64,000 nucleotides of DNA from Fructilactobacillus cliffordii. GTDB lineage: Bacteria > Bacillota > Bacilli > Lactobacillales > Lactobacillaceae. Below, piece by piece: positions 42,531-55,426 of this stretch. The translations under genes and the position numbers were made by a program. Within the stretch, counting starts at the first letter, position 1; the number at the start of each line of letters is the position of its first letter. The notes beneath the pieces are model-generated. The model searched no databases, was not told the origin of the DNA, and saw only the letters and a program-made list of their open reading frames with translations. The stretch lies in assembly GCF_024029355.1 (NCBI RefSeq), contig NZ_CP097117.1, positions 1,240,001-1,304,000 on the forward strand. The letters run 5' to 3'.

Positions 42531-43910
42531 ATGAGCAAAACTAAACAAGCACCAGTAACCAAAAACGAAACGCTCGACGTGGACGTGACCGACCTGACTT
42601 ACAAAGGAATGGGCGTGTCCAAAGTCGACGGTGGGTATCCGCTCTTCATCGAAGACGCGTTACCGGGTGAACAAGTGACGGTGAAGGTAATTAAGGTGAA
42701 GAAAAACTTTGCCTTTGCCAAGTTACTGAAGATCAATCAAGCCAGCCCTGATCGGGTCGCCATCGTGAACAAAAAGCTGACGCAATCGGGAATTTCCCCA
42801 TTGCAACACCTGAGTTACGCTAAGCAACTGGAGTTTAAGCAACACCAGATTGCCGAATTGTTCCAAAAGGCCCATCTGGATCAGGTTCAGGTAGAACCCA
42901 CGATTGGGATGGATCATCCGGTCCAATATCGCAACAAAGCCCAGATTCCAGTCCGGGAACTTCACGGACAACTGGAAACCGGGTTTTACCGTCGGCACAG
43001 TCACGATTTGATTCCAATCGAGGATTTTTACATTCAGGAACCCGCGATCGATGATGCAATCGTGAAGGTCCGGGACGTCCTACGGGAATTTCAACTTCCG
43101 GCGTACAACGAAACGACGCACCAGGGTCTGATTCGGAACATTATGGTGCGTTACGGCAAGTACAGTCATGAATTGATGGTGGTGTTGGTAATTAACGCCA
43201 AGCATCTGCCACGAGCTGCCGAAATTACGGCCGCCATTCAGGAAAAATTGCCGCACCTGGACAGTTTAATTGTGAACGTTAATCAGAGTACCGGGAACCG
43301 GTTGTTAGGCGAAAAGAACACGGTGCTGGCAGGAAAAGACTACATCATGGACCAGCTGTTGGGCACCAAGTTCTTAATTTCACCACTGTCGTTTTATCAG
43401 GTCAACCCGGTCCAGACGGAAAGACTGTACTCGTTAGCGATTGAAAAAGCTCAGTTGACAAAGGATGACATCGTAATCGATGCCTACTGTGGGATCGGAA
43501 CGATTTCATTGGCAATGGCACCGCAAGTCAAGCACGTTTACGGAGTCGACGTGGTCAAGGAAGCGATTCAAGATGCGCGCACAAACGCCAAGTTGAACCA
43601 CATTGAAAACGCCACTTTTGTTACCGGCAAGGCCGAAGACCAGATGCAAAAGTGGGAAGTGGAAGGCATTAAACCAAATGTAATTGTGGTTGATCCGCCC
43701 CGCAAAGGACTTGACGCCAGTTTCATTGAAAGTGCATTGAAGATGCGGCCAGAACGACTGGTGTACGTTTCCTGTAATCCAGCCACGTTGGTGCGCGATG
43801 CCCAGTTGTTGATTGATGGTGGTTACACGATTGATCAGCCGGTCCAACCGGTAGACCAGTTTCCGCAGACGCCACATGTGGAGAGTGTGACGGTGTTTAC
43901 GCGGAAATAG
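42531..43910 (+). CDS. rlmD: 23S rRNA (uracil-5-)-methyltransferase, RlmD/RlmCD type
   Basis: SAM-dependent enzyme making 5-methyluridine in 23S rRNA. The 459-residue protein has an N-terminal TRAM domain (DVDVTDLTYKGMGVSKVDGG). Methylase motifs follow: VIDAYCGIGTISLAM (motif I), VVDPPRKGLD (motif IV), and YVSCNPATLVRD with the catalytic Cys. The iron-sulfur cysteines of E. coli RlmD are not seen, as is usual in Gram-positive homologues. An AT-rich block begins right after the stop. Confidence 0.94.
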   Translation: MSKTKQAPVTKNETLDVDVTDLTYKGMGVSKVDGGYPLFIEDALPGEQVTVKVIKVKKNFAFAKLLKINQASPDRVAIVNKKLTQSGISPLQHLSYAKQLEFKQHQIAELFQKAHLDQVQVEPTIGMDHPVQYRNKAQIPVRELHGQLETGFYRRHSHDLIPIEDFYIQEPAIDDAIVKVRDVLREFQLPAYNETTHQGLIRNIMVRYGKYSHELMVVLVINAKHLPRAAEITAAIQEKLPHLDSLIVNVNQSTGNRLLGEKNTVLAGKDYIMDQLLGTKFLISPLSFYQVNPVQTERLYSLAIEKAQLTKDDIVIDAYCGIGTISLAMAPQVKHVYGVDVVKEAIQDARTNAKLNHIENATFVTGKAEDQMQKWEVEGIKPNVIVVDPPRKGLDASFIESALKMRPERLVYVSCNPATLVRDAQLLIDGGYTIDQPVQPVDQFPQTPHVESVTVFTRK

Positions 43911-44002
43911 GATAAATATTTAATTCGTTGTAATATTTATATATTGTAATTTCAAATTTTTATTAGTGATGGTTTTATAAAATAAGGGTAAGTAGATACA
44001 TT

Positions 44003-44743
44003 ATGGATAATGAAGAGATTAATCTTTTTGATGATCATCTATTTGAAAATAAGGAAGAAAAATTTAAATTAAATCCTGTAACAGAAGATGGGTTCTTAAT
44101 AAAATCAAAAAATCGTGTGCAACATCACGGAGAAGTGTTTACTCCTAAATGGATGGTTAAAAAAATGTTATCAGAACCCTCTATTCAAAATAAACTACAT
44201 GATTTACATGCTACTTTTTTTGAGCCAAGTGCAGGAGAAGGTGCTTTTTTGAAAGAAATATTACACCAAAAGTTAAACTATGTAGATCAAGTATCTAATA
44301 AAAGAAATTGGAATATTAACGCACTTTGGGCGTTGATGAGTATTTATGCTGTTGAATTATTGAATGATAATTTATTTAAGGCCAGACAAAGTATGATTGA
44401 TATTTTTGTAAATCATTATCAATCTTTTCTCCAACGTAAATTAAGTATTAATACTGATATTTATAAATCTGTTAATTTTATTATTAACGTGAATATTGTG
44501 CAAGGAAATACTTTAACTTATAAAAATGATGAAAATAAACTAATTGAATTTAGTGAATGGATTCCAGTTGGCAATCTAGTTGAAAGGTCAATATTTACTT
44601 ACAAATCATTGTTTGAAAATGATGATGTTAAATCTAATAACAAACAATTAAGCCTTTTTGATGAGTTAAAAAATTACAATGATCAAGAAAATAATTTAAT
44701 GTTAATAACTAAAGTATATAAGGGGGGATGTATGAATGGATAG
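44003..44743 (+). CDS. split adenine methyltransferase, SAM-binding half
   Basis: A 246-residue protein that carries only the front half of an Eco57I-like N6-adenine methylase. Motif X is HGEVFTPKWMV (42-52), motif I is FEPSAGEGAFL (73-83), and NIVQGNTLTY sits near 170-180. It has no NPPY motif; that begins the next gene, whose ATG lies eight bases before this stop. The last codons include a run of six G that serves as the ribosome binding site of the next gene. The two proteins should form one active enzyme protecting host DNA. Very AT-rich, with AAGGG as the only upstream ribosome-binding-like sequence. Confidence 0.82.
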   Translation: MDNEEINLFDDHLFENKEEKFKLNPVTEDGFLIKSKNRVQHHGEVFTPKWMVKKMLSEPSIQNKLHDLHATFFEPSAGEGAFLKEILHQKLNYVDQVSNKRNWNINALWALMSIYAVELLNDNLFKARQSMIDIFVNHYQSFLQRKLSINTDIYKSVNFIINVNIVQGNTLTYKNDENKLIEFSEWIPVGNLVERSIFTYKSLFENDDVKSNNKQLSLFDELKNYNDQENNLMLITKVYKGGCMNG

Positions 44744-45791
44744 TAAAGATTTTAAATTTGATGTTGTAATTGGTAATCCACCGTACCAAGATGAAACAAT
44801 TGGAGATAATAAAGGATATGCTCCTCCTATTTACCATAAATTTTTAGATGATGCGTATAAGGTTGGCAAAATTGTTGAAATGATTCATCCGGGTCGTTTT
44901 CTTTTTGATGCTGGAAGTACTCCTAAATCCTGGAATAAAAAAATGCTCAATAATAATCATATTAAGGTTATTTACTATGAACAAAATAGTAATAAAGTTT
45001 TTAACGGAACCGATATTAAGGGTGGAGTTGCAGTAACATATTATGATGAAAATAAAATTTTTAAAAAGATTGGTATTTTTACACCATTTAAAGAATTAAG
45101 AAGCATATTTGATAAAGTTGTGAGCAAGAAAAATTTTGTTCCATTTAGTAAAATAATTTTTTCGCCAGAAAATTATAAATTTACTAATAAAATGCATCAA
45201 GATTATCCTGATGCTAATAATAAACTTAGTAATGGTCATAAGTATGATCTTAAATCTAATGTTTTTGATAAATTGCCTGATGTATTTTTGACTAATATTC
45301 CAGAAAAATCAAATAAAACAGAATTCATTAAAATTTATGGATTAAAAAATAGGAAGAGAACATATAGATATATAAAAAGTGAATATATAAAAAATGAAAC
45401 AAATTTAAATGGTTGGAAAGTATTTGTTCCTAAAGCCAATGGAAATGGTGAGCTTGGAGAGGTGTTATCAACGCCAGTAATTGGAAATCCCTTGGTTGGT
45501 AATACTCAAACATTTATAAGTATTGGGAATTTTGTATCTAGGTATGAAGCAAGTGCTGTAATGAGTTACATTAAGACTAAATTTTGTAGGACATTACTAG
45601 GAATTTTAAAAATAACTCAGGATAACACGCAAAGTAAATGGTCATGTGTCCCTTTACAAGATTTCAGTACTGATTCTGACATTGATTGGTCAAAATCAAT
45701 ACCAGAAATTGATAAGCAATTATACAAAAAGTACGGGTTAGATACGCAAGAGATAAACTTCATTGAAACTAGGGTAAAGGAGATGAAGTAA
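44736..45791 (+). CDS. split adenine methyltransferase, catalytic/target-recognition half
   Basis: A 351-residue protein beginning MDSKDFKFDVVIGNPPYQDE, so the NPPY catalytic motif (14-17) is at the extreme N-terminus. The remainder (about 90-340) lacks recognisable motifs and is likely the target recognition region, with a segment around GNPLVGNTQTFISIGNF near 240. AAGGGGGG lies eight bases before the ATG. A TGA in this frame directly precedes the ATG, so the split from the upstream gene is not a simple frameshift. The next gene starts one base after the stop. It should dimerise with the SAM-binding half. Confidence 0.82.
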   Translation: MDSKDFKFDVVIGNPPYQDETIGDNKGYAPPIYHKFLDDAYKVGKIVEMIHPGRFLFDAGSTPKSWNKKMLNNNHIKVIYYEQNSNKVFNGTDIKGGVAVTYYDENKIFKKIGIFTPFKELRSIFDKVVSKKNFVPFSKIIFSPENYKFTNKMHQDYPDANNKLSNGHKYDLKSNVFDKLPDVFLTNIPEKSNKTEFIKIYGLKNRKRTYRYIKSEYIKNETNLNGWKVFVPKANGNGELGEVLSTPVIGNPLVGNTQTFISIGNFVSRYEASAVMSYIKTKFCRTLLGILKITQDNTQSKWSCVPLQDFSTDSDIDWSKSIPEIDKQLYKKYGLDTQEINFIETRVKEMK

Positions 45792-45792
45792 A

Positions 45793-48700
45793 ATGAGTTC
45801 TCCAAAAATAAAAGCATATAAACGATTTATCCCAATGATATATGCATACACAACTCCTAATGATATTTCTCATAATGGGTGGTCTAAAATTGGTTATACT
45901 GCTTATCAATCGGTGGAAGATAGAATTAATCAACAAAGTCATACTGTAGACGTAAAAACTGAATTACTATGGCAAGCAAATGCTCGTTATAATGACGGGA
46001 CAGATGAAACTTTCACTGATCATGAATTTCATGATTATTTAGTTCAGAAACGAAATGTTGAACGAAAAAATCATACGGAATGGTTTCATATTGATAAAGA
46101 TACGTCTCGTAGATATTTTTATGAATTTGCTGCTCGTGATTATGAAAATATACAAGGTGATAAAAGTCATATTCAATATGAACTTCGTAAAGAACAAAAA
46201 AGTGCGGTAGATAAAACAATTTCTTATTTCAAGAAGAACGGTAAAGGAAGCGAATTCTTGTGGAACGCTAAACCTCGTTTTGGAAAAACTTTAACTGCAT
46301 ACGATTTGATCCGTAAGATGCAAATGAAAAATGTATTAGTGGTAACTAATCGTCCTAGTATTGCTAATTCATGGTTTGATGATTTTGATAAATTTATTGC
46401 TTGTCAAAGTAATCTTAAATTTGTTAGCGAAACAGATGCGTTGAAAGATAGACCGGTTCTTTCCCGACAAGAATTTATCAATTTAATTTCTGATGGCAAT
46501 GACTATGGACAAATAGTATTTGAAAGTCTTCAGGGATTAAAAGGTTCTGTTTATTTTGGTGGCAACTACGATAAACTTAAATGGATTAAAGATTTAAATT
46601 GGGATCTTCTAATTATTGATGAGGCCCATGAAGGTGTAGATACTTATAAGACTAGTAATGCATTTGATAATATTAAACGTAAATATACACTTCACTTAAC
46701 TGGAACCCCCTTTAAAGCATTGGCAAATGGAAAGTTTGCAGAAAATCAGATCTTTAATTGGTCTTATGCTGATGAACAAAAGGCTAAAGCTGATTGGAAT
46801 GAAGAAGTTGAAGGTGATAGTAATCCATATTCAATGATGCCACGGTTAAATATGTTTACTTATCAATTATCTAAAATGCTTTCTAATACATTAAAAAAAG
46901 GAATTGATGTAGGGAATGAAGATAGAGTTAATCCTGCATTTGATTTAAATGAATTTTTCAAAGTTGAAAATGGAAAATTTAAGTATGATCATGAAATTGA
47001 TTGTTTCTTGAAGATGTTAACTACTGGGGAAAAGTATCCATTTTCTACTCCTAAATTACGTAGAGAATTGTCACATACTTTCTGGATTTTAAATCGAGTG
47101 GATAGTGCTAAAGAATTAGCTAAGAAGCTACAGGATCATCCAGTATTTAAGGAATATAAAGTTATTCTTGCTGTAGGTAATGGTAAATTTGATGATAATC
47201 AACTAAATGATGACCAGTTAGATAGTGCAAATGAAAAGGCATTTGACAAGGTTCAAAAAGCAATAAAAGAAAATGATAAGACAATTACATTAAGTGTTGG
47301 ACAACTTACTACTGGTGTTACAGTTAAACCTTGGTCAGCTGTCCTAATGCTTTCGAACATGCATAGCCCTGCTGAATATATGCAAGCGGCTTTTAGGGCA
47401 CAAAATCCATATACTGCTAGACTTGAGAATGGTGAATTATTTCAAAAAGAAAATGCATATGTATTTGATTTTGATCCAACTAGAACTTTAACCATTTTTG
47501 ATGAATTTGCTAATGATTTAATGGCTAAAACTTCTAATGGAAAGGGAACGATTGCCGACCATAAAAATAATATTTCTAAATTATTGAACTTTTTCCCAGT
47601 AATTGGGGAAGATAAAAATGGTAAGATGGTTGAACTTGATGAAGAACAAGTATTGTCCATCCCTCGTCAATTGAAGTCTCAAGAAGTTGTAAATCGTGGA
47701 TTTATGAGTAATTTCCTTTTTGCTAATATTTCTAGAATTTTTGCTGCTCCGACTGAAGTACGTGAAATTTTGAATGAATTAGTGACTATCAAAGAAGGTA
47801 AAATTCAAAGAAATGATCACGATGCTATTGAAAATGCTGAAGATGTTTCAGTTGATAATAATGGTGAAATTGAAATTCCTAAAGAGCTTGTTATAGGTAA
47901 ATACAAGGATCTTTTTGGTGATAAAGTTTATTCTGATCTAGGGGATCAGTTAATTAGTTCTGTAAATAATAATGATAGCACTGATTTTAAAACAGTTGTT
48001 AATGATATTTCTAAGCAAATTAATGATACGTTGGGAAAAGAGGTTATTAATCGAGTTTCCAATAATTCTGAATTAAATAAGAATGAAGTAAAACGGCAGC
48101 AAAAGCATGTTATAAAAGAGAATAATCAGGAATTAAATAAAATTGCTGAAGAGTCAAATAATCAAAATGAAATTGCTAAAACTGAATATAAAAAAGCGCT
48201 GTCGACTGATCTTAATCAAAAAGAGTTAAATGAAGCTAAAAATAAATATGAAACTACATTTCAAAATATTCTCGATAATTTTAATCAGAAAATACATGAT
48301 CATGTAAAAAATGCTGTTGAAGAAATTCCAGTTAAAGTTGTTGAGAGAGTTGAAAAAAATGAAGAAAAGAAAAAATTAAATAATATTGAAGAAGATGCTA
48401 GATCTCATTTACGTGGTTTTTCTCGAACAATTCCAAGTTTTATAATGGCATATGGGGATAAAAATCTAACACTCCAAAACTTTGATGATTACACAGAAGA
48501 TGATGTTTTTAAAGAAGTAACAGGAATTACAGAGAATCAGTTCCGATTCTTGCGTGATGGTGGTGATTACGTTGATTCCGGAACGGGAGAAAATAAACAT
48601 TTTGAAGGTCATCTGTTTGATGAAGTTGTTTTTAATGATTCAATTCAACAATTTTTAGAAAAAAAGAATCAATTAAGTAACTATTTTGAAGATAATAGTA

Positions 48701-49140
48701 ATGAAGATATCTTTGATTACATTCCATCACAAAAAAACAATCAAATTTTTACTCCAAAAGCGGTGGTAAAACATATGGTTGATGATTTAGAGAAAAATAA
48801 TCCCGGAATATTTGACGATCCTAATAAAACATTTGCTGATCTGTATATGAAGTCTGGATTATATATTACGGAGATTATAAAACGTTTATTCCGTAATAAT
48901 AAAATGAAGCAACTTTTCCCAGATAAGAATGAGCGAATTAAACATATTGTAGAAAATCAAGTTTATGGACTTGCTCCGACAAGAATTATTTACTTGATTG
49001 CTATAAATTATATTTTTGGTTTTGATGAAAATTTAAAAAACTCAATTGGGCAAAATCATTTTAAGCAAGTAGATGCCGCAAAATATGCTAAAGAAGGCAC
49101 ACTAAAGGAAATTGTAGAAAAAGAATTTGGAAATGGATGA
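45793..49140 (+). CDS. GIY-YIG nuclease, DEAH helicase and methylase-like fusion protein
   Basis: A 1115-residue protein with at least four parts. Residues 13-110 resemble a GIY-YIG nuclease of the T5orf172 type: IYAYTTP, KIGYT at 32-36, R45 in VEDRINQQ, Glu in HEFH (77-80) and TEWF (95-98). Residues about 120-570 are an SF2 helicase: PRFGKT (161-166), DEAH (276-279), LTGTPF (302-307) and AEYMQAAFRAQ. Residues about 740-870 are charged coiled coil. Residues about 985-1115 look like a methylase front end, with IFTPKAVVKHMV and ADLYMKSG in place of a classical motif I, and have no NPPY. With the two methylase genes it forms a restriction-modification operon; translocation followed by GIY-YIG cleavage is inferred. 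Confidence 0.8.
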   Translation: MSSPKIKAYKRFIPMIYAYTTPNDISHNGWSKIGYTAYQSVEDRINQQSHTVDVKTELLWQANARYNDGTDETFTDHEFHDYLVQKRNVERKNHTEWFHIDKDTSRRYFYEFAARDYENIQGDKSHIQYELRKEQKSAVDKTISYFKKNGKGSEFLWNAKPRFGKTLTAYDLIRKMQMKNVLVVTNRPSIANSWFDDFDKFIACQSNLKFVSETDALKDRPVLSRQEFINLISDGNDYGQIVFESLQGLKGSVYFGGNYDKLKWIKDLNWDLLIIDEAHEGVDTYKTSNAFDNIKRKYTLHLTGTPFKALANGKFAENQIFNWSYADEQKAKADWNEEVEGDSNPYSMMPRLNMFTYQLSKMLSNTLKKGIDVGNEDRVNPAFDLNEFFKVENGKFKYDHEIDCFLKMLTTGEKYPFSTPKLRRELSHTFWILNRVDSAKELAKKLQDHPVFKEYKVILAVGNGKFDDNQLNDDQLDSANEKAFDKVQKAIKENDKTITLSVGQLTTGVTVKPWSAVLMLSNMHSPAEYMQAAFRAQNPYTARLENGELFQKENAYVFDFDPTRTLTIFDEFANDLMAKTSNGKGTIADHKNNISKLLNFFPVIGEDKNGKMVELDEEQVLSIPRQLKSQEVVNRGFMSNFLFANISRIFAAPTEVREILNELVTIKEGKIQRNDHDAIENAEDVSVDNNGEIEIPKELVIGKYKDLFGDKVYSDLGDQLISSVNNNDSTDFKTVVNDISKQINDTLGKEVINRVSNNSELNKNEVKRQQKHVIKENNQELNKIAEESNNQNEIAKTEYKKALSTDLNQKELNEAKNKYETTFQNILDNFNQKIHDHVKNAVEEIPVKVVERVEKNEEKKKLNNIEEDARSHLRGFSRTIPSFIMAYGDKNLTLQNFDDYTEDDVFKEVTGITENQFRFLRDGGDYVDSGTGENKHFEGHLFDEVVFNDSIQQFLEKKNQLSNYFEDNSNEDIFDYIPSQKNNQIFTPKAVVKHMVDDLEKNNPGIFDDPNKTFADLYMKSGLYITEIIKRLFRNNKMKQLFPDKNERIKHIVENQVYGLAPTRIIYLIAINYIFGFDENLKNSIGQNHFKQVDAAKYAKEGTLKEIVEKEFGNG

Positions 49141-49170
49141 CATTAATTTCCAAATCATTGGGAAATCAAA

Positions 49171-49554
49171 ATGAAATTAAATCATGATTTAGTTAGAGAG
49201 ATCTTGTTAGTAATTGAAGATACAGATAATCCTTCTGGACCTGATAGTCAATATCTAATAAATAGGCTTAATAAAAATAATAATTGGACTTATAATGAAA
49301 TTGCTTATACTATTGGTAAATTAAAAGAAGCTAGATTTATTGATGGGGATGTTACATGGGGAGATAATATGCCATTGCGAATTTCCCCAGGCAATTTAAC
49401 ATATTATGGACATAAGTTTTTAGATAACATCAGAGATAATAATGTATGGAGAGAAACTAAAAAAATAGTTTCTGGATTTTCAAGCGTTTCATTAGGAATA
49501 CTTTCTAATGTTTCTGCAGGAGTAATTACTGAATTAATAAAAAGGAATTTATAA
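49171..49554 (+). CDS. DUF2513 protein
   Basis: A 127-residue protein. The start MKLNHDLVREILLVIEDTDN and the ending segment LTYYGHKFLDNIRDNNVWRE, then SGFSSVSLGILSNV, are the DUF2513 pattern. The first 90 residues look like a winged helix (helix pair, then DGDVTWGDN wing); the rest is an amphipathic helix. Function is unknown; such genes are frequent near phage and restriction loci. It starts 30 bases after the fusion gene and is probably in the same transcript, which ends at the hairpin that follows. Confidence 0.82.
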   Translation: MKLNHDLVREILLVIEDTDNPSGPDSQYLINRLNKNNNWTYNEIAYTIGKLKEARFIDGDVTWGDNMPLRISPGNLTYYGHKFLDNIRDNNVWRETKKIVSGFSSVSLGILSNVSAGVITELIKRNL

Positions 49555-49570
49555 TATATATATTTAAATT

Positions 49571-49617
49571 TGGATTCATTCGATTCTCTGAAAATGAGAT
49601 GGAATGAATCCATTTTT
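49571..49617 (+). terminator. terminator after the restriction-modification block
   Basis: TGGATTCATT pairs exactly with AATGAATCCA, with inner CTC/GAG pairs, followed by T5. Confidence 0.85.
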
Positions 49618-49729
49618 CATGGAAATAAATTCACATTAAATCAATTTATAATAATAGATTAATTATTTACGTAATTCTCGTAGTTGTGGTTAAAAAAATT
49701 AAATTTTTGTACAAAATAATTTATAGATT

Positions 49730-49772
49730 TTGAAATCCATAAAGTTTCCAATTATAATAGCATATATGCTAT
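49730..49772 (+). promoter_or_regulatory. promoter and palindromic operator of the toxin-antitoxin operon
   Basis: TTGAAA (49730-49735), 17-base spacer, TATAAT (49753-49758). A perfect 16-bp palindrome, ATAGCATA/TATGCTAT (49757-49772), overlaps the end of the -10 box. It is a likely site for autorepression by the Xre antitoxin. Confidence 0.75.
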
Positions 49773-49803
49773 ATTTAATGTATAGCTAAGTAAGGATTAT
49801 TTA

Positions 49804-50148
49804 ATGAATTTTATTTATCAGGATCCAAAAAAATTTAAACATTTTTTATTAGAATTACCAGAAAAAGACCGAGTTAAATTGTTGCATACAATCTCAAATA
49901 TTGAAAAATATGGGTATGCAGTTGCTCAAAAAATGGGTTGGACGAAAAAAATTAATGATAATTTATATGAAATTAGATCGAAATTTTCATCTAATATTCA
50001 AAGAGGAATTTATTTTCATTTGGAAAATAATAAGTATGTAATTACTCATGGATTTACGAAGAAAACGCAAGTAACGCCTAAAAAGGAAATTAAGAAAGCT
50101 AAGCAACTTCGTAGCGATTATTTAAGGCATAAACACGCAGGGAGATGA
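49804..50148 (+). CDS. higB: HigB-type toxin (RelE/ParE superfamily, Gp49-like)
   Basis: A 114-residue basic protein with the RelE-fold pattern. It has an N-terminal helix pair (KKFKHFLLELPEKDRVKLLH), LYEIRSKFSSNIQRGIYFHL, and a C-terminal HGFTKKTQVTPKKEIKKA segment, as in HigB toxins that cut mRNA on the ribosome. It precedes the antitoxin, the order typical of higBA, and overlaps its upstream region. Confidence 0.88.
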   Translation: MNFIYQDPKKFKHFLLELPEKDRVKLLHTISNIEKYGYAVAQKMGWTKKINDNLYEIRSKFSSNIQRGIYFHLENNKYVITHGFTKKTQVTPKKEIKKAKQLRSDYLRHKHAGR

Positions 50149-50153
50149 TATTA

Positions 50154-50426
50154 ATGACGCAAACTGATGAATTTATTAAAGAATTTTCTAAGGATTCTAA
50201 ATTTAAACGAGATTTTGAAGAAGCAGATATGAGAACGGAAGCAGCTCTTGCTGTTCGCTCCTTAAGAGAACAGTTAGGACTGACGCAAGCAGAATTTGCT
50301 GAATTAGTGGGCAAACCACAATCTACCATCTCAAGAATTGAAACAGAAGAAATGAATCCAACTTTTAAATTGCTAGAAGAAATTGGAGCAAAGACAAATC
50401 GACGGTTAAACATTAAATATGTTTAG
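50154..50426 (+). CDS. higA: HigA-type Xre-family antitoxin
   Basis: A 90-residue helix-turn-helix protein: SLREQLGLTQAEFAELVGKP then QSTISRIETEEMNPTFKLLE. It should bind the toxin and the palindrome upstream of the operon. The ATG at 50154 has AGGGAG about ten bases upstream; the ATG at 50145 would start inside the toxin stop and is too close to that site. Confidence 0.9.
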   Translation: MTQTDEFIKEFSKDSKFKRDFEEADMRTEAALAVRSLREQLGLTQAEFAELVGKPQSTISRIETEEMNPTFKLLEEIGAKTNRRLNIKYV

Positions 50427-50482
50427 GATTAGTAGCTTTTTATTGTTAGTGTTTGAACTTTTGAGAACTAGATAGAAATGAC

Positions 50483-50526
50483 AAAAGTACGATCTTCGTT
50501 TGATAAGAGCATCGTACTTTTATTTT
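50483..50526 (+). terminator. terminator after higBA
   Basis: AAAAGTACGAT pairs with ATCGTACTTTT around a 17-base loop, followed by a T-rich stretch. Confidence 0.85.
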
Positions 50527-50640: not shown

Positions 50641-51789
50641 ATCACACGTAAACTAACGGATTCAGTTACATTTCGCCGCGGAGTTACAGTAAACGGGCGG
50701 TTGTTTATGCCACCGATGTTGACCTCGTCGGGAACGGCGGATGGAAGAGCAACTGCAGATACGTTGCAATACTATGCGGCTCGTAGTAAGACCGCCGGGA
50801 TGTTGATTACTGAATATCACTACGTCAGTGAAAATGGAGGACCTAGTGGCGGCGGTCCCTTTGGGCAACAACTCGGGATTTATGATAATCAGCACTTGGA
50901 ATCGATTAAGGCGCTTGCCACCACGATGAAACAAGACGGCGCAAAAGCCATTTTGCAAATTAACCACGGTGGGCTACGCAGTAACGGCTTTGGCGCAGAA
51001 CACGGATATACGTTTGGTCCGAGCGCCATTCATTTCCCGAAGTTGGATTATCAAGTTTTAGAATTAACCACTGATCAAATTCATTCAATTATCCGTGACT
51101 TTGGTTTAGCTACGAAACGGGCCATTGACGCAGGTTTTGATGGCGTTGAAATTCATGGAGCTAATCATTATTTGTTACAACAATTTATGTCGACGTATTC
51201 GAACCGGCGTACAGACGAGTGGGGAGGCTCATTGACCAATCGGATGCGTTTTCCTCTAGCAGTTACGAAGGAAGTTTTGCGGATAGTCAATCAGTACGCT
51301 CCCCAATACTTTATTGTCGGTTACCGGATTAGTCCTGAAGAACTGCATCATGACGGCAGTGGTTACACAATTGCTGATTCTAACCAGTTAGTGAAGGAAC
51401 TGAACAAGTTGAAGCTGGATTACCTGCACGTTTCCATCTTTGGCCACTATTACGATGGTCCCAAGGACAGCAAGCTGAGTTACACGCAAATTTACCGGGA
51501 ATCGCTCGATGACGAAACGAAATTGTTGGCGGTTGGCGGTATATTTAGTGTCGAAGCAGCGCTGGATGCCGTTAACCACTATATGGACATGGTCGGGATG
51601 GCCCGGGGCAGTTTGATTGATCCGTTGTTTGGTTATAAAGTGGACAATGATCAGGCGGATGAAATTGTACATGAGATTTCACCGGAACAGTTGAAACAAA
51701 CGTCCTGGACCAAGGGCTTGTTAGATTCGTTCTCATTGCCCGACAATGGGTTACCACCGTTGCCAAATGGGGATTCGATTAAAAAATAG
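50641..51789 (+). CDS. NADH:flavin oxidoreductase (old yellow enzyme family) with a non-standard start
   Basis: FMN-dependent enoate reductase-like TIM barrel. GGAGAACGG-type residues are replaced but the family marks are clear: MPPMLTSSG near the start, ILQINHGGLRS, FDGVEIHGANHYLLQQF, SNRRTDEWGGSLTNRMRFP and GMARGSLIDP. An N-terminus like that of homologues (TRKLTDSVTFRRGVTVNGR) is encoded in frame upstream of the first standard start codon, TTG at 50701. AGGAGG ends eight bases before an ATC codon at 50641, exactly where a start is expected. Either ATC is the initiator or the original ATG has mutated. From TTG the product is 362 residues; from ATC it is 382. Confidence 0.85.
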   Translation: MTRKLTDSVTFRRGVTVNGRLFMPPMLTSSGTADGRATADTLQYYAARSKTAGMLITEYHYVSENGGPSGGGPFGQQLGIYDNQHLESIKALATTMKQDGAKAILQINHGGLRSNGFGAEHGYTFGPSAIHFPKLDYQVLELTTDQIHSIIRDFGLATKRAIDAGFDGVEIHGANHYLLQQFMSTYSNRRTDEWGGSLTNRMRFPLAVTKEVLRIVNQYAPQYFIVGYRISPEELHHDGSGYTIADSNQLVKELNKLKLDYLHVSIFGHYYDGPKDSKLSYTQIYRESLDDETKLLAVGGIFSVEAALDAVNHYMDMVGMARGSLIDPLFGYKVDNDQADEIVHEISPEQLKQTSWTKGLLDSFSLPDNGLPPLPNGDSIKK

Positions 51790-52728: not shown

Positions 52729-54351
52729 GTGGGTTATTTAGAAAAAATTAAAATACATAATTATAAAACCTTTAAAGATTTCGAAATGGATTTTAATAAG
52801 GATTTAAATATTATTGTTGGTGAAAATGGAGTTGGAAAAACAAGTATATTAGAATCAATTGGTATAGTGCTCAACCAATACATATTCTTTAACAATCCCA
52901 ACTTCGTCAATCATTTATTTAATAAAAGTTCTATAGACGAATTTAAAAATAATGACATTAAAGATATAAAAGAGCTACCCTATATAAAAATAGAAGCATA
53001 CTTTAATTTTGATAATGAACAAGATATTAATTTAAGTAAATTCAATGGAACCAATTATTCTGAATTACATTCCTATAATAATGAACCTAAATATGGGATT
53101 ACTTTTGAATTTAAATTCGATGAAAGTTTTGAGGATGTTATTAGTATTGATGAACTAAATTCAAGTTATATTATCCCAACTGATTATTATAAGTCAACGT
53201 GGACTACTTTTGCTGGTTGCTCATATAAAAGATTCCAAAATCCTTTAAAATCAATAATTATTGATAATTCTATAAATAAAAATGATGTTTATGGATCATA
53301 TTCTCGAAATCTGTTTAACAGTAAAATTGATTCAATAGAAAGAACAAAAATTGAATATAAATTTAGTAATCAAATGAAAAAGTTAATTAATGAAATTTCT
53401 TATGAGCATAAAGAGTCTTTATTTTTGGATGATGATAAAAAATTTTCTGTTAATGAAGAAAAAAGCAAACTAGATAAATTATTAGATATTGAAGAAAATG
53501 ACATTTCGATAAGTGATATGGGTTCTGGTGAAGAGGAACTTTTAAAAACGGAGCTTTCTTTAAATAATAAAAACGATTCAAAATTGATTTTAATTGAAGA
53601 ACCTGAGAATCATCTAAGTTTTTCAAATACCAAAAAGCAAATTTCATTGATTATAAAAAGAAAAAATGATTGCCAAATAATTTTAACTACACATGAATCT
53701 ATGATTTTGAATAAGTTAAATTTGAGTAAAGCAATTTGGATTAACAATTCTAAATCTAAATCATTGAAGAATCTTCATGAAGATACACAATCGTTTTTTG
53801 AAAAAGCTGGTAATTTTGACATATTAACATTTATTTTAGCTAATAAAGTTATGTTAGTTGAAGGTCCATCGGAATTTATTTTATTTCCAATATTTTTTCA
53901 AAAAATGTATGAAGAAAAAACACTTGATAGTGAAAAAATAGAAATATTAACTATGAATGGAATAAAATATAAACGATTTGTAGAAATAGCAAACGATTTA
54001 AAAAAGTATACGGCTGCTTTCATAGATAATGATGGGAATCAAAATAGAATAAATTATTTTGATTCATTCAACGATAGTGAGAATTATATCAATGTTTTTA
54101 CAGAAGCTGACAAAAGTAATTTAACATTTGAAAATGCTTTATATAACGAGTCTAATGCAAATAAAGATCTTATAAAGAGTATTTTAAATTTAAGCGATGA
54201 AAATCCAGAAGAGATTATCAGTAAAATGAAGAATGATAAAACGGGTTTTGCAATAAAACTTTTTGACCATATGAAGGATAATATGGACACTAATATTGAT
54301 ATTCCTAATTATATAAAAAGAGGTTTTGAATATCTTGAAAAAGGGAAATAA
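52729..54351 (+). CDS. gajA: GajA: OLD-family ATPase/TOPRIM nuclease of a Gabija system
   Basis: A 540-residue protein. The ABC-type ATPase has Walker A GENGVGKT at 31-38, the signature region DMGSGEEELL and Walker B LILIEEPENHLS. A C-terminal TOPRIM nuclease domain begins near residue 380 with VMLVEGPSEFILFP and has AAFIDNDGN as the second metal site. In Gabija, GajA nicks DNA when nucleotide pools fall during phage infection. The GTG start follows AGGAG by eight bases. The next gene starts inside its last 26 bases, so the two are translated together. Very AT-rich. Confidence 0.9.
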   Translation: MGYLEKIKIHNYKTFKDFEMDFNKDLNIIVGENGVGKTSILESIGIVLNQYIFFNNPNFVNHLFNKSSIDEFKNNDIKDIKELPYIKIEAYFNFDNEQDINLSKFNGTNYSELHSYNNEPKYGITFEFKFDESFEDVISIDELNSSYIIPTDYYKSTWTTFAGCSYKRFQNPLKSIIIDNSINKNDVYGSYSRNLFNSKIDSIERTKIEYKFSNQMKKLINEISYEHKESLFLDDDKKFSVNEEKSKLDKLLDIEENDISISDMGSGEEELLKTELSLNNKNDSKLILIEEPENHLSFSNTKKQISLIIKRKNDCQIILTTHESMILNKLNLSKAIWINNSKSKSLKNLHEDTQSFFEKAGNFDILTFILANKVMLVEGPSEFILFPIFFQKMYEEKTLDSEKIEILTMNGIKYKRFVEIANDLKKYTAAFIDNDGNQNRINYFDSFNDSENYINVFTEADKSNLTFENALYNESNANKDLIKSILNLSDENPEEIISKMKNDKTGFAIKLFDHMKDNMDTNIDIPNYIKRGFEYLEKGK

Positions 54352-55426
54352 TTCTAAAATTGTATTTGCAGTAGCGGGTTCCGGTAAGACGACAGAAATT
54401 GGAAAAGAAATAAGTTATAACAAAGATAAAAATAATTTATTAATTACTTTTACTAATCAAAATGTCGAAAATATAAAAATAGGAATACAGAAATTTTGTG
54501 ATGAAGGAATACCTGAAAATACAATTGTTTTAACTTATACAAAATTTTTATATTATTGGCTTATAATACCTTTTAAAAAAATTATTAAAGTCGGTAAAGA
54601 TAATTTTTGTATATCAGAAGGAATTACAATTGAAACTCCAGAACCTCAAAGAATAAATGGTAAATCTAATCATAAGTATCGTAAAAATGACGATTATAGA
54701 CATTACGTTAATAGAAATAAACAACTATATGCATCTAGATTATCGGAATTGTTTAATAATCAAAAGGCTTGTACAAAAAAGTTGATAATAAAAAGATTGA
54801 ATTACTTCACAGACAATATATATATAGATGAATTTCAGGATTTTACGGGTAAAGATTTTGATTTACTTATGCAAATATCTGATTATTTGAATGATGCAAA
54901 ATTAACAATGTTTGGAGATTTTTTTCAAAGCCAGGTTTCTATGTCTGATCAAAGGAATCTTTCTCCGTATAAAGAAGGTAATTTTGATAAATTCAAATTC
55001 GATTTAAAAACGAAGCATAATATTGCAATAGATGAAAATAGTTTAAAAAGATCATATAGATGTCCTCCGAAAACTTGTGATTTTATTAGAGATAATTTGG
55101 GAATTAACATATTTTCTAAATCAAATGGTGATGGTGAAGTAACTATTGAAAAAGACTCAAAACGAATTACTGAAATATTAAATGATAAAAATATTGTAAA
55201 GTTATATTGGAATAGTAATCATAATGAATATGGCAATTTTGAGCCATATAATAAATGGGGATATTCAAAAGGAGATACTTATAATAATGTCGCAATAATT
55301 CTAACTAAAACGGTGAAAACAAAATTAAGAGAAAATAATCTATATAATCTAAACCCAAAAACAAAAAATAGTTTTTATGTTGCTCTAACAAGATCAAAAG
55401 GAAATACCTATTTAATCTGTAATTAA
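54326..55426 (+). CDS. gajB: GajB: UvrD-like helicase of a Gabija system
   Basis: A 366-residue SF1 helicase: Walker A AGSGKTT at 17-23, LLITFTNQNVENI (motif Ia), IYIDEFQDF (motif II), TMFGDFFQSQ (motif III), RSYRCPP (motif IV) and FYVALTRSKGNTYLI (motif VI) at the very C-terminus. It is shorter than typical GajB of about 490 residues, yet it has the first and last motifs, so a subdomain is likely missing rather than the gene cut. It starts at TTG 54326; a second TTG at 54335 is possible. GajB should sense single-stranded ends and activate GajA. Confidence 0.88.
   Translation: MNILKKGNNSKIVFAVAGSGKTTEIGKEISYNKDKNNLLITFTNQNVENIKIGIQKFCDEGIPENTIVLTYTKFLYYWLIIPFKKIIKVGKDNFCISEGITIETPEPQRINGKSNHKYRKNDDYRHYVNRNKQLYASRLSELFNNQKACTKKLIIKRLNYFTDNIYIDEFQDFTGKDFDLLMQISDYLNDAKLTMFGDFFQSQVSMSDQRNLSPYKEGNFDKFKFDLKTKHNIAIDENSLKRSYRCPPKTCDFIRDNLGINIFSKSNGDGEVTIEKDSKRITEILNDKNIVKLYWNSNHNEYGNFEPYNKWGYSKGDTYNNVAIILTKTVKTKLRENNLYNLNPKTKNSFYVALTRSKGNTYLICN

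Follow-up and report, generated by a model that had tools for sequence, protein, structure and literature searches.

A locus of Fructilactobacillus cliffordii with a split adenine methyltransferase and a degenerate methyltransferase half on a nuclease-helicase: a predicted translocating restriction-modification system

Related restriction-modification systems

Type ISP restriction enzymes such as LlaGI and LlaBIII are composed, in this order, of a nuclease, a superfamily 2 (SF2) motor, a helical coupler, a gamma-class adenine methylase, and a C-terminal recognition domain (PMC4872093, PMC3874165). Type IIG-like systems that possess a translocase and a separate GIY-YIG nuclease have also been reported, OspHL35III among others (Blow et al. 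2016, PMC4752239). Here, we describe three genes, S, N, and R, that lie in a window of 64,000 nucleotides (G000:C1:1240001-1304000) of the 1.46-Mb one-contig genome of F. cliffordii. S and N appear to be the two parts of one methylase, S with the S-adenosylmethionine (AdoMet) site and N with the catalytic motif and the recognition region, while the nuclease-helicase R ends in a degenerate AdoMet-binding half, K. Overall, S/N/R is probably an adenine restriction-modification system of three subunits that translocates with the use of ATP, with the exchange of N as the simplest model.

With the Type ISP enzymes the locus may share the domain order, and K has moderate fold matches to them (LlaGI 839-1010 and LlaBIII 815-1010). 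Unlike them, it distributes these parts over three chains in the window, and its relatives in which K and N are fused still have a separate S. The N-terminus of R matches T5orf172/GIY-YIG (E 1.3e-5), whereas Type ISP has an Mrr-family nuclease, and the methylase half linked to the motor lacks the AdoMet-binding residues, the AdoMet half being a separate protein. A preliminary description, made from the sequence alone, had likened the genes to type ISP or type III. The first likeness stands weakly, by fold, and the system belongs to neither type. Type III systems consist of a beta-class Mod protein, in which motif IV precedes motif I, and of Res; this candidate was rejected on motif order, since S and N together, like the natural S-N fusions, read X-I-II-III-IV followed by a target-recognition domain. 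That is the layout of a gamma-class N6-adenine methyltransferase, with the AdoMet motifs, then motif IV, then the recognition domain.

Like the OspHL35III-type systems, the locus spreads a translocase, a GIY-YIG nuclease, and methylase and recognition functions over several chains. There, however, the methylase/specificity protein is MmeI-like minus its nuclease, and the passages compared mention neither a split nor a pseudo-half (PMC4752239).

In Type IIG enzymes, endonuclease, methylase, and recognition reside in one polypeptide, whereas here they are spread over three. Compared by model matches only, the PADLOC model REase_MTase_IIG (PDLC03626) recognizes gene 3 (E 2.5e-13) and gene 2 (2e-30) separately, the N-like MTase_II model PDLC03375 matches gene 2 (E 9.5e-32), and the S2-like MTase_II model PDLC03390 matches the S2 protein of locus L069 (E 1.9e-77). 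The comparison with PADLOC, proposed in the preliminary description, thus returned Type II/IIG models whose names imply independent enzymes, and we suggest that 'MTase_II' and 'REase_MTase_IIG' cover half-enzymes. As in Type I systems (HsdR, HsdM, and HsdS), motor, AdoMet/methylase part, and specificity are encoded by three genes, and in Type I the specificity gene is swapped by recombination. The locus differs in that N combines the catalytic motif IV with recognition, S makes up just one half of a methylase, and R bears a methylase half. A whole HsdM beside a separate, non-catalytic specificity protein is not what is seen here: the motif IV pattern is absent from all 53 distinct separate S proteins, and N starts with motif IV in 28 of 31.

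PDB sequence searches with genes 1, 2, and 3 each gave zero matches at E 0.1; in NCBIfam, genes 1, 2, and 4 had no match and gene 3 had a single one below the cut-off. Among the literature matches listed, as far as their accessible text goes and with subscription papers and REBASE outside the scope, no description of a split or pseudo-half methylase was found; a prior description is possible. We regard the system as a variant of the translocase-bearing Type IIG-like/ISP-like systems.

Organization and motifs of S, N, and R

Four plus-strand genes were called as open reading frames (ORFs) at 44003-44743, 44736-45791, 45793-49140, and 49171-49554. Their tight packing, pointed out in the preliminary description, is confirmed for genes 1 to 3 (S, N, and R), which are closely coupled over 44003-49140: S and N overlap by 8 bp, and a gap of 1 bp separates N from R. 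A Shine-Dalgarno-like AAGGGGGG lies upstream of N and AAAGGAG upstream of R. The core features are:

44003..44743, plus strand: S, half-methyltransferase with an AdoMet site (motifs X, I, and II; no motif IV)
44736..45791, plus strand: N, catalytic half with target-recognition region, an exchangeable specificity module (Eco57I, E 1.2e-17; cassette exchange)
45793..49140, plus strand: R, a protein of 1115 amino acids (aa) with nuclease, helicase, linker, and pseudo-AdoMet half (Pfam, module profiles)
45817..46122, plus strand: GIY-YIG (T5orf172) nuclease domain, R residues 9-110 (Pfam, invariant residues)
46147..47658, plus strand: SF2 helicase (ResIII) motor, R residues 119-622 (Walker A PRFGKT, DEAH, GTPFK)
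48670..49104, plus strand: K, degenerate AdoMet-binding half, R residues 960-1104 (motif comparison, module profile)

S (246 aa) carries motif X as EVFTPK, motif I as EPSAGEG, and the motif II acid in VELL, and it ends upstream of motif IV. It has zero matches in Pfam and matches MTase_II in PADLOC (E 7e-7) and a DNA methyltransferase family in PHROGs (E 1.7e-14). The first glycine of motif I and the motif II acid are present in all 55 S halves compared (38 S1 and 17 S2, the S of L013 excluded). N (351 aa) has its NPPY motif IV at residues 14-17 and a variable recognition region downstream, and its Eco57I match covers only positions 72-171 of the 171 in the profile. Motif IV falls within the first 30 residues of the 28 separate N proteins mentioned above; in the other three it stands at residue 73 (one protein) or the pattern is missing (two). 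Motifs, Eco57I, PADLOC, and PHROGs thus agree with the preliminary assignment of gene 1 as the motif X/I half and gene 2 as the NPPY half. The profile searches suggested there gave the expected families for gene 2 (Eco57I), gene 3 (T5orf172 and ResIII), and gene 4 (DUF2513), and no Pfam family for gene 1.

Gene 3 matches ResIII with E 1.3e-17 and T5orf172 with the E-value given above, and in R a helical linker joins the SF2 helicase to K. The GIY-YIG and helicase parts are as first described, and the 'methylase-like module' that was to follow them can be refined to a degenerate AdoMet-binding N-terminal half. Within the GIY-YIG domain, Asp76, His80, and Glu96 are invariant in all 34 distinct K1-type R proteins, as is the Walker A lysine, Lys165, which had been singled out beforehand. 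Glu78, proposed at the same time as a nuclease residue and taken as one of gene 3, did not hold up, with glutamate found in only 4 of 34 distinct R proteins.

Motif I of K reads DLYMKSG, in which Asp1016 and the second glycine are retained and Lys1020 replaces the first glycine; GLAPT occupies the motif II position, where the acid is absent. Among 62 K halves (40 K1 and 22 K2) neither the first motif I glycine nor the motif II acid occurs once, and 61 have lysine at the glycine position. The 18 aligned K rows retain the aspartate and the second glycine of motif I, and all of them have an aspartate at the motif III position. A different degenerate motif (STAG), with neither glycine nor lysine, was observed in the R of an Arthrobacter plasmid (L017:5001-8297), showing that the lysine is not strictly needed. 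Since S keeps the AdoMet residues, K loses them, and N starts at motif IV, the sequences mark S and N as complementary halves and K as a conserved pseudo-version of S.

Relatives and gene orders

Relatives were collected by tblastn against plasmids (83 records, 40 of them listed; eight were fetched, plus one further stretch of one of these), by a genome-contig scan (11 loci, with Lactobacillus and Ligilactobacillus among the genera named), and by viral-contig scans with several queries (5, 1, 5, 14, and 1 loci, partly overlapping). Whole-genome matches were found in 44 of 397 same-family genomes and 7 of 398 class genomes, own genome included, with four weak matches in the first set (G550, G575, G624, and G778) and one in the second. 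Most loci were found via R, K, or K-N queries. Module profiles made from the fetched loci were applied to the ORFs of all loci, and identical K-bearing proteins were counted once, yielding 64 distinct ones. The short loci L026-L060 were superseded by longer refetched ones where these existed, and the architecture counts leave aside the non-refetched matches (including G455, G470, G533, G555, G784, and the four weak ones) as well as G253.

An S gene or S half lies at the locus of 58 of the 64 K-bearing proteins, so that a methylase cut at the boundary between AdoMet binding and catalysis, with one live-looking and one disabled-looking half, is kept in several arrangements. The most frequent orders are S, N, R (16 loci, including L009 with a broken R) and a helicase-K-N protein followed by S (16), next to S, R, N (nine), S before helicase-K-N (six, L020 and L101 included), S before an R-N fusion (five), and an S-N fusion before R (three); L018 has S, K-N, and helicase, and L025 is decayed with S and N. 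Seven loci were initially without S. The S of L013 was later found across the origin of the circular plasmid, and the six others are at contig ends (L061, L082, and L102) or broken (L068, L096, and L099). Every fetched locus with an unbroken R and no truncation by a contig end has an intact-looking AdoMet half. N is separate at 28 loci, fused to K at 29 (28 of them with S), fused to S at three, and not seen at four (L068, L082, L096, and L099). Of the 11 genome relatives, ten (L009 among them) encode S and N separately, and the remaining one, L011, has an S-like half fused to N. Conservation of the gene set in other genomes, on which the preliminary description made its proposal depend, is therefore borne out.

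The S query of the viral contigs gave five loci, four of them on contigs already known and the fifth with an R identical to a counted one. A strong S match (E <= 2.3e-28) was obtained in 30 same-family genomes, and the R list contains 28 of them; the exceptions are G662, whose S is split between two matches, and G707. Three S matches at E values of about 4e-4 were set aside. At L016, the Eco57I domain runs full-length (1-171) across the K-N joint. A further NPPY half was detected in L101 only among the K-N fused loci, and the one N of L020 is reported as two adjacent stretches. The R of L009 (L009:8001-11235) is in two frames, of 124 aa (part of the nuclease domain) and 1061 aa (helicase and K). 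In an alphaproteobacterial plasmid (L018:4372-9204), S, K-N, and helicase are three proteins and the helicase is apart from K, and at L099:554-6426 two serine recombinase genes occupy the place of the front part of R.

N is exchanged between loci in the manner of a specificity cassette. L021 and the window are 70% identical in S, 26% in N, and 78% in R, and L002 and L021 are 77.5%, 27.7%, and 95.4% identical, respectively. At the DNA level, L002 and L023 share 97.2% identity as far as L002 position 1689 and 94.7% from 2046 onward, and between these two segments lies an unmatched block within N (356 bp in L002). On the viral contig L101, a second N without a start and a third, inverted N come after a fused helicase-K-N gene; the stretch with these cassettes (L101:7433-10492) also holds a 33-bp inverted repeat (97%), a 315-bp inverted repeat (69%), and a tyrosine recombinase gene. 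These N cassettes and the recombinase look like a natural specificity cassette switch. For enzyme engineering, S/N/R would be a modular scaffold in which specificity is swapped naturally.

Proposed mechanism and alternative explanations

Sequence, fold, and gene-fusion evidence together make it very probable that the system is a restriction-modification system of the translocating kind. With the same high confidence, S and N are predicted to form an active methylase and K to be a pseudo-half. K is likely to pair with N. That S and K take turns on N, each excluding the other, is put forward tentatively, at slightly less than an even chance.

A gamma-class methyltransferase would be split between motif III and motif IV, N bringing the catalytic NPPY and target recognition and S the working AdoMet site. 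S+N is read as the modification enzyme because the halves are complementary and three natural S-N fusions exist; K+N is read as a recognition unit because of the 29 K-N fusions and the Eco57I domain across the L016 joint. The latter would find and flip the target base, be unable to methylate it, and direct R to unmethylated sites, where, by analogy with Type ISP (PMC4872093, PMC3874165), the R motor would translocate and the GIY-YIG domain cut the DNA. We infer cleavage and a role in defence, the variable insertion site and the Gabija-like genes nearby being context for the latter.

S and K would compete for one N. In the class I methyltransferase fold, strand beta1 adjoins beta4, and a split between motifs III and IV puts these strands in different parts, so that one N should take one front half at a time. 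S and K would fill the same face of N, hence the exchange model. A further idea, possible though rather speculative, is a self/non-self switch in which N shuttles between S, the protector, and the cofactor-blind K of the nuclease-motor, the attacker; the lysine of K might sit in the AdoMet site and, in a salt bridge to the kept aspartate, mimic the cofactor-bound state, and the attacker could close on the flipped base without AdoMet. How a single recognition unit is made to work for protection as well as for attack is a question central to restriction systems, and three genes make it directly testable.

The weak point of the exchange model is that S must act on a tethered N at the K-N fused loci. 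As to the nuclease, T5orf172 is not reported by Pfam in L016 and is weak in L104 and the K2 branch. Alternatively, S+N could be a permanent methylase and K a mere docking domain for R, as HsdR joins M2S in type I, with no exchange of N. Separate and closely spaced S, N, and R genes in the window would suit such a stable holoenzyme, N is already partnered at the three loci with an S-N fusion beside a K-bearing R, and a pseudo-half could have turned into a scaffold. We nevertheless consider it unlikely, as N stands directly behind K, in canonical methylase order, in 29 of the 64 K-bearing proteins, the full-length Eco57I match in L016 makes K-N resemble one methylase fold, and an extra NPPY half is seen at only one of the K-N fused loci.

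K-N might also methylate by itself through an atypical AdoMet site, as an ordinary Type IIG-like enzyme, S being an activator or acting elsewhere. Fused relatives do match REase_MTase_IIG, K retains the motif I aspartate, the second glycine, and the motif III-position aspartate, and L018 encodes a free-standing K-N protein of 524 aa. The loss of the motif II acid in 62 of 62 K halves and of glycine to lysine in 61, the intact-looking AdoMet half at all loci that are complete in the above sense, and the natural fusions that place S in front of N render this improbable.

Recognition and translocation without cutting, in a system like bacteriophage exclusion (BREX) or an abortive one with a structural or regulatory GIY-YIG domain, seems still less probable given the invariance of Asp76, His80, and Glu96; it would accord with the weak nuclease matches in L016 and the K2 branch and with BrxX/PglX as the first Foldseek match of the S-N structure model. 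That model, folded from an alignment with trimmed gene 2 rows, has CamA, BrxX, MmeI, and BpuSI among its fold matches; it is of low confidence and weak at motif IV and was relied on loosely only.

Finally, a decayed or misread single methylase gene, split by a frameshift as the 8-bp overlap in different frames beside a G6 tract might suggest, can be dismissed, since 10 of the 11 genome relatives likewise keep S and N apart, their junctions and frames differing, and motif IV is missing from the 53 distinct separate S proteins. A phase-variable split at G6 was rejected likewise, the run occurring in none of 10 relatives' junctions, yet the split being kept; it probably occupies the expected position of a ribosome-binding site.

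Insertion site and neighboring genes

Two further features complete the region:

43945..50520, no strand: variable insertion site (same flanks, other content in four same-genus genomes)
49171..49554, plus strand: DUF2513 protein, accessory (Pfam DUF2513, E 2.6e-22)

The GC content of the gene cluster is 0.27-0.31, compared with 0.48-0.50 in the 4 kb on its left side. The left neighbor (42531-43910) is an RNA-methyltransferase-like gene, presumably rlmD-like, and the right neighbor (50701-51789) one that we take to be oxidoreductase-like. Both flanks, up to ~43,900-43,945 and from ~50,285-50,523 of the window, are kept in four of the six same-genus genomes fetched; between them nothing in these four matches the window, and their inter-flank DNA (~1.6-4.5 kb) differs. 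Since the flanks are shared and the content is not, the site is variable. The remaining two genomes match on the left flank only. Genes 1, 2, and 3 have one match each in their own genome.

DUF2513, initially counted as part of the operon, was rejected as a core component. There are 13 other distinct close loci (L002-L010, L012, L021, L023, and L061), and it was found in two of them; the DNA fetched for L023 stops too soon to show it. It comes after a GmrSD-like gene in L010, L012, and the viral contigs with L010's R. Such a gene directly follows R in 11 of the 13 (L002, L003, L004, L005, L007, L009, L010, L012, L021, L023, and L061) and was not found in the other two, L006 and L008. The L010 gene matches GmrSD_N (8.1e-41) and GmrSD_C (5.1e-25) in Pfam, and the GmrSD-like gene matches the Orf5/HEC-06 models of PADLOC. 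Next to a nuclease that senses methylation, one that depends on modification might extend coverage to phages whose DNA is modified. In the window, the 30-bp gap between R and DUF2513 has no space for the GmrSD-like gene.

Further along, 49804-50426 encodes a Gp49-like protein (Pfam, 1.5e-21) and an HTH_3 protein, likely a toxin-antitoxin pair that we assume to be HigBA-like. Just past the variable site, a GajA/GajB-like pair (Gabija; PADLOC E 9.7e-89 and 3.6e-42) of low GC content lies at 52729-55426.

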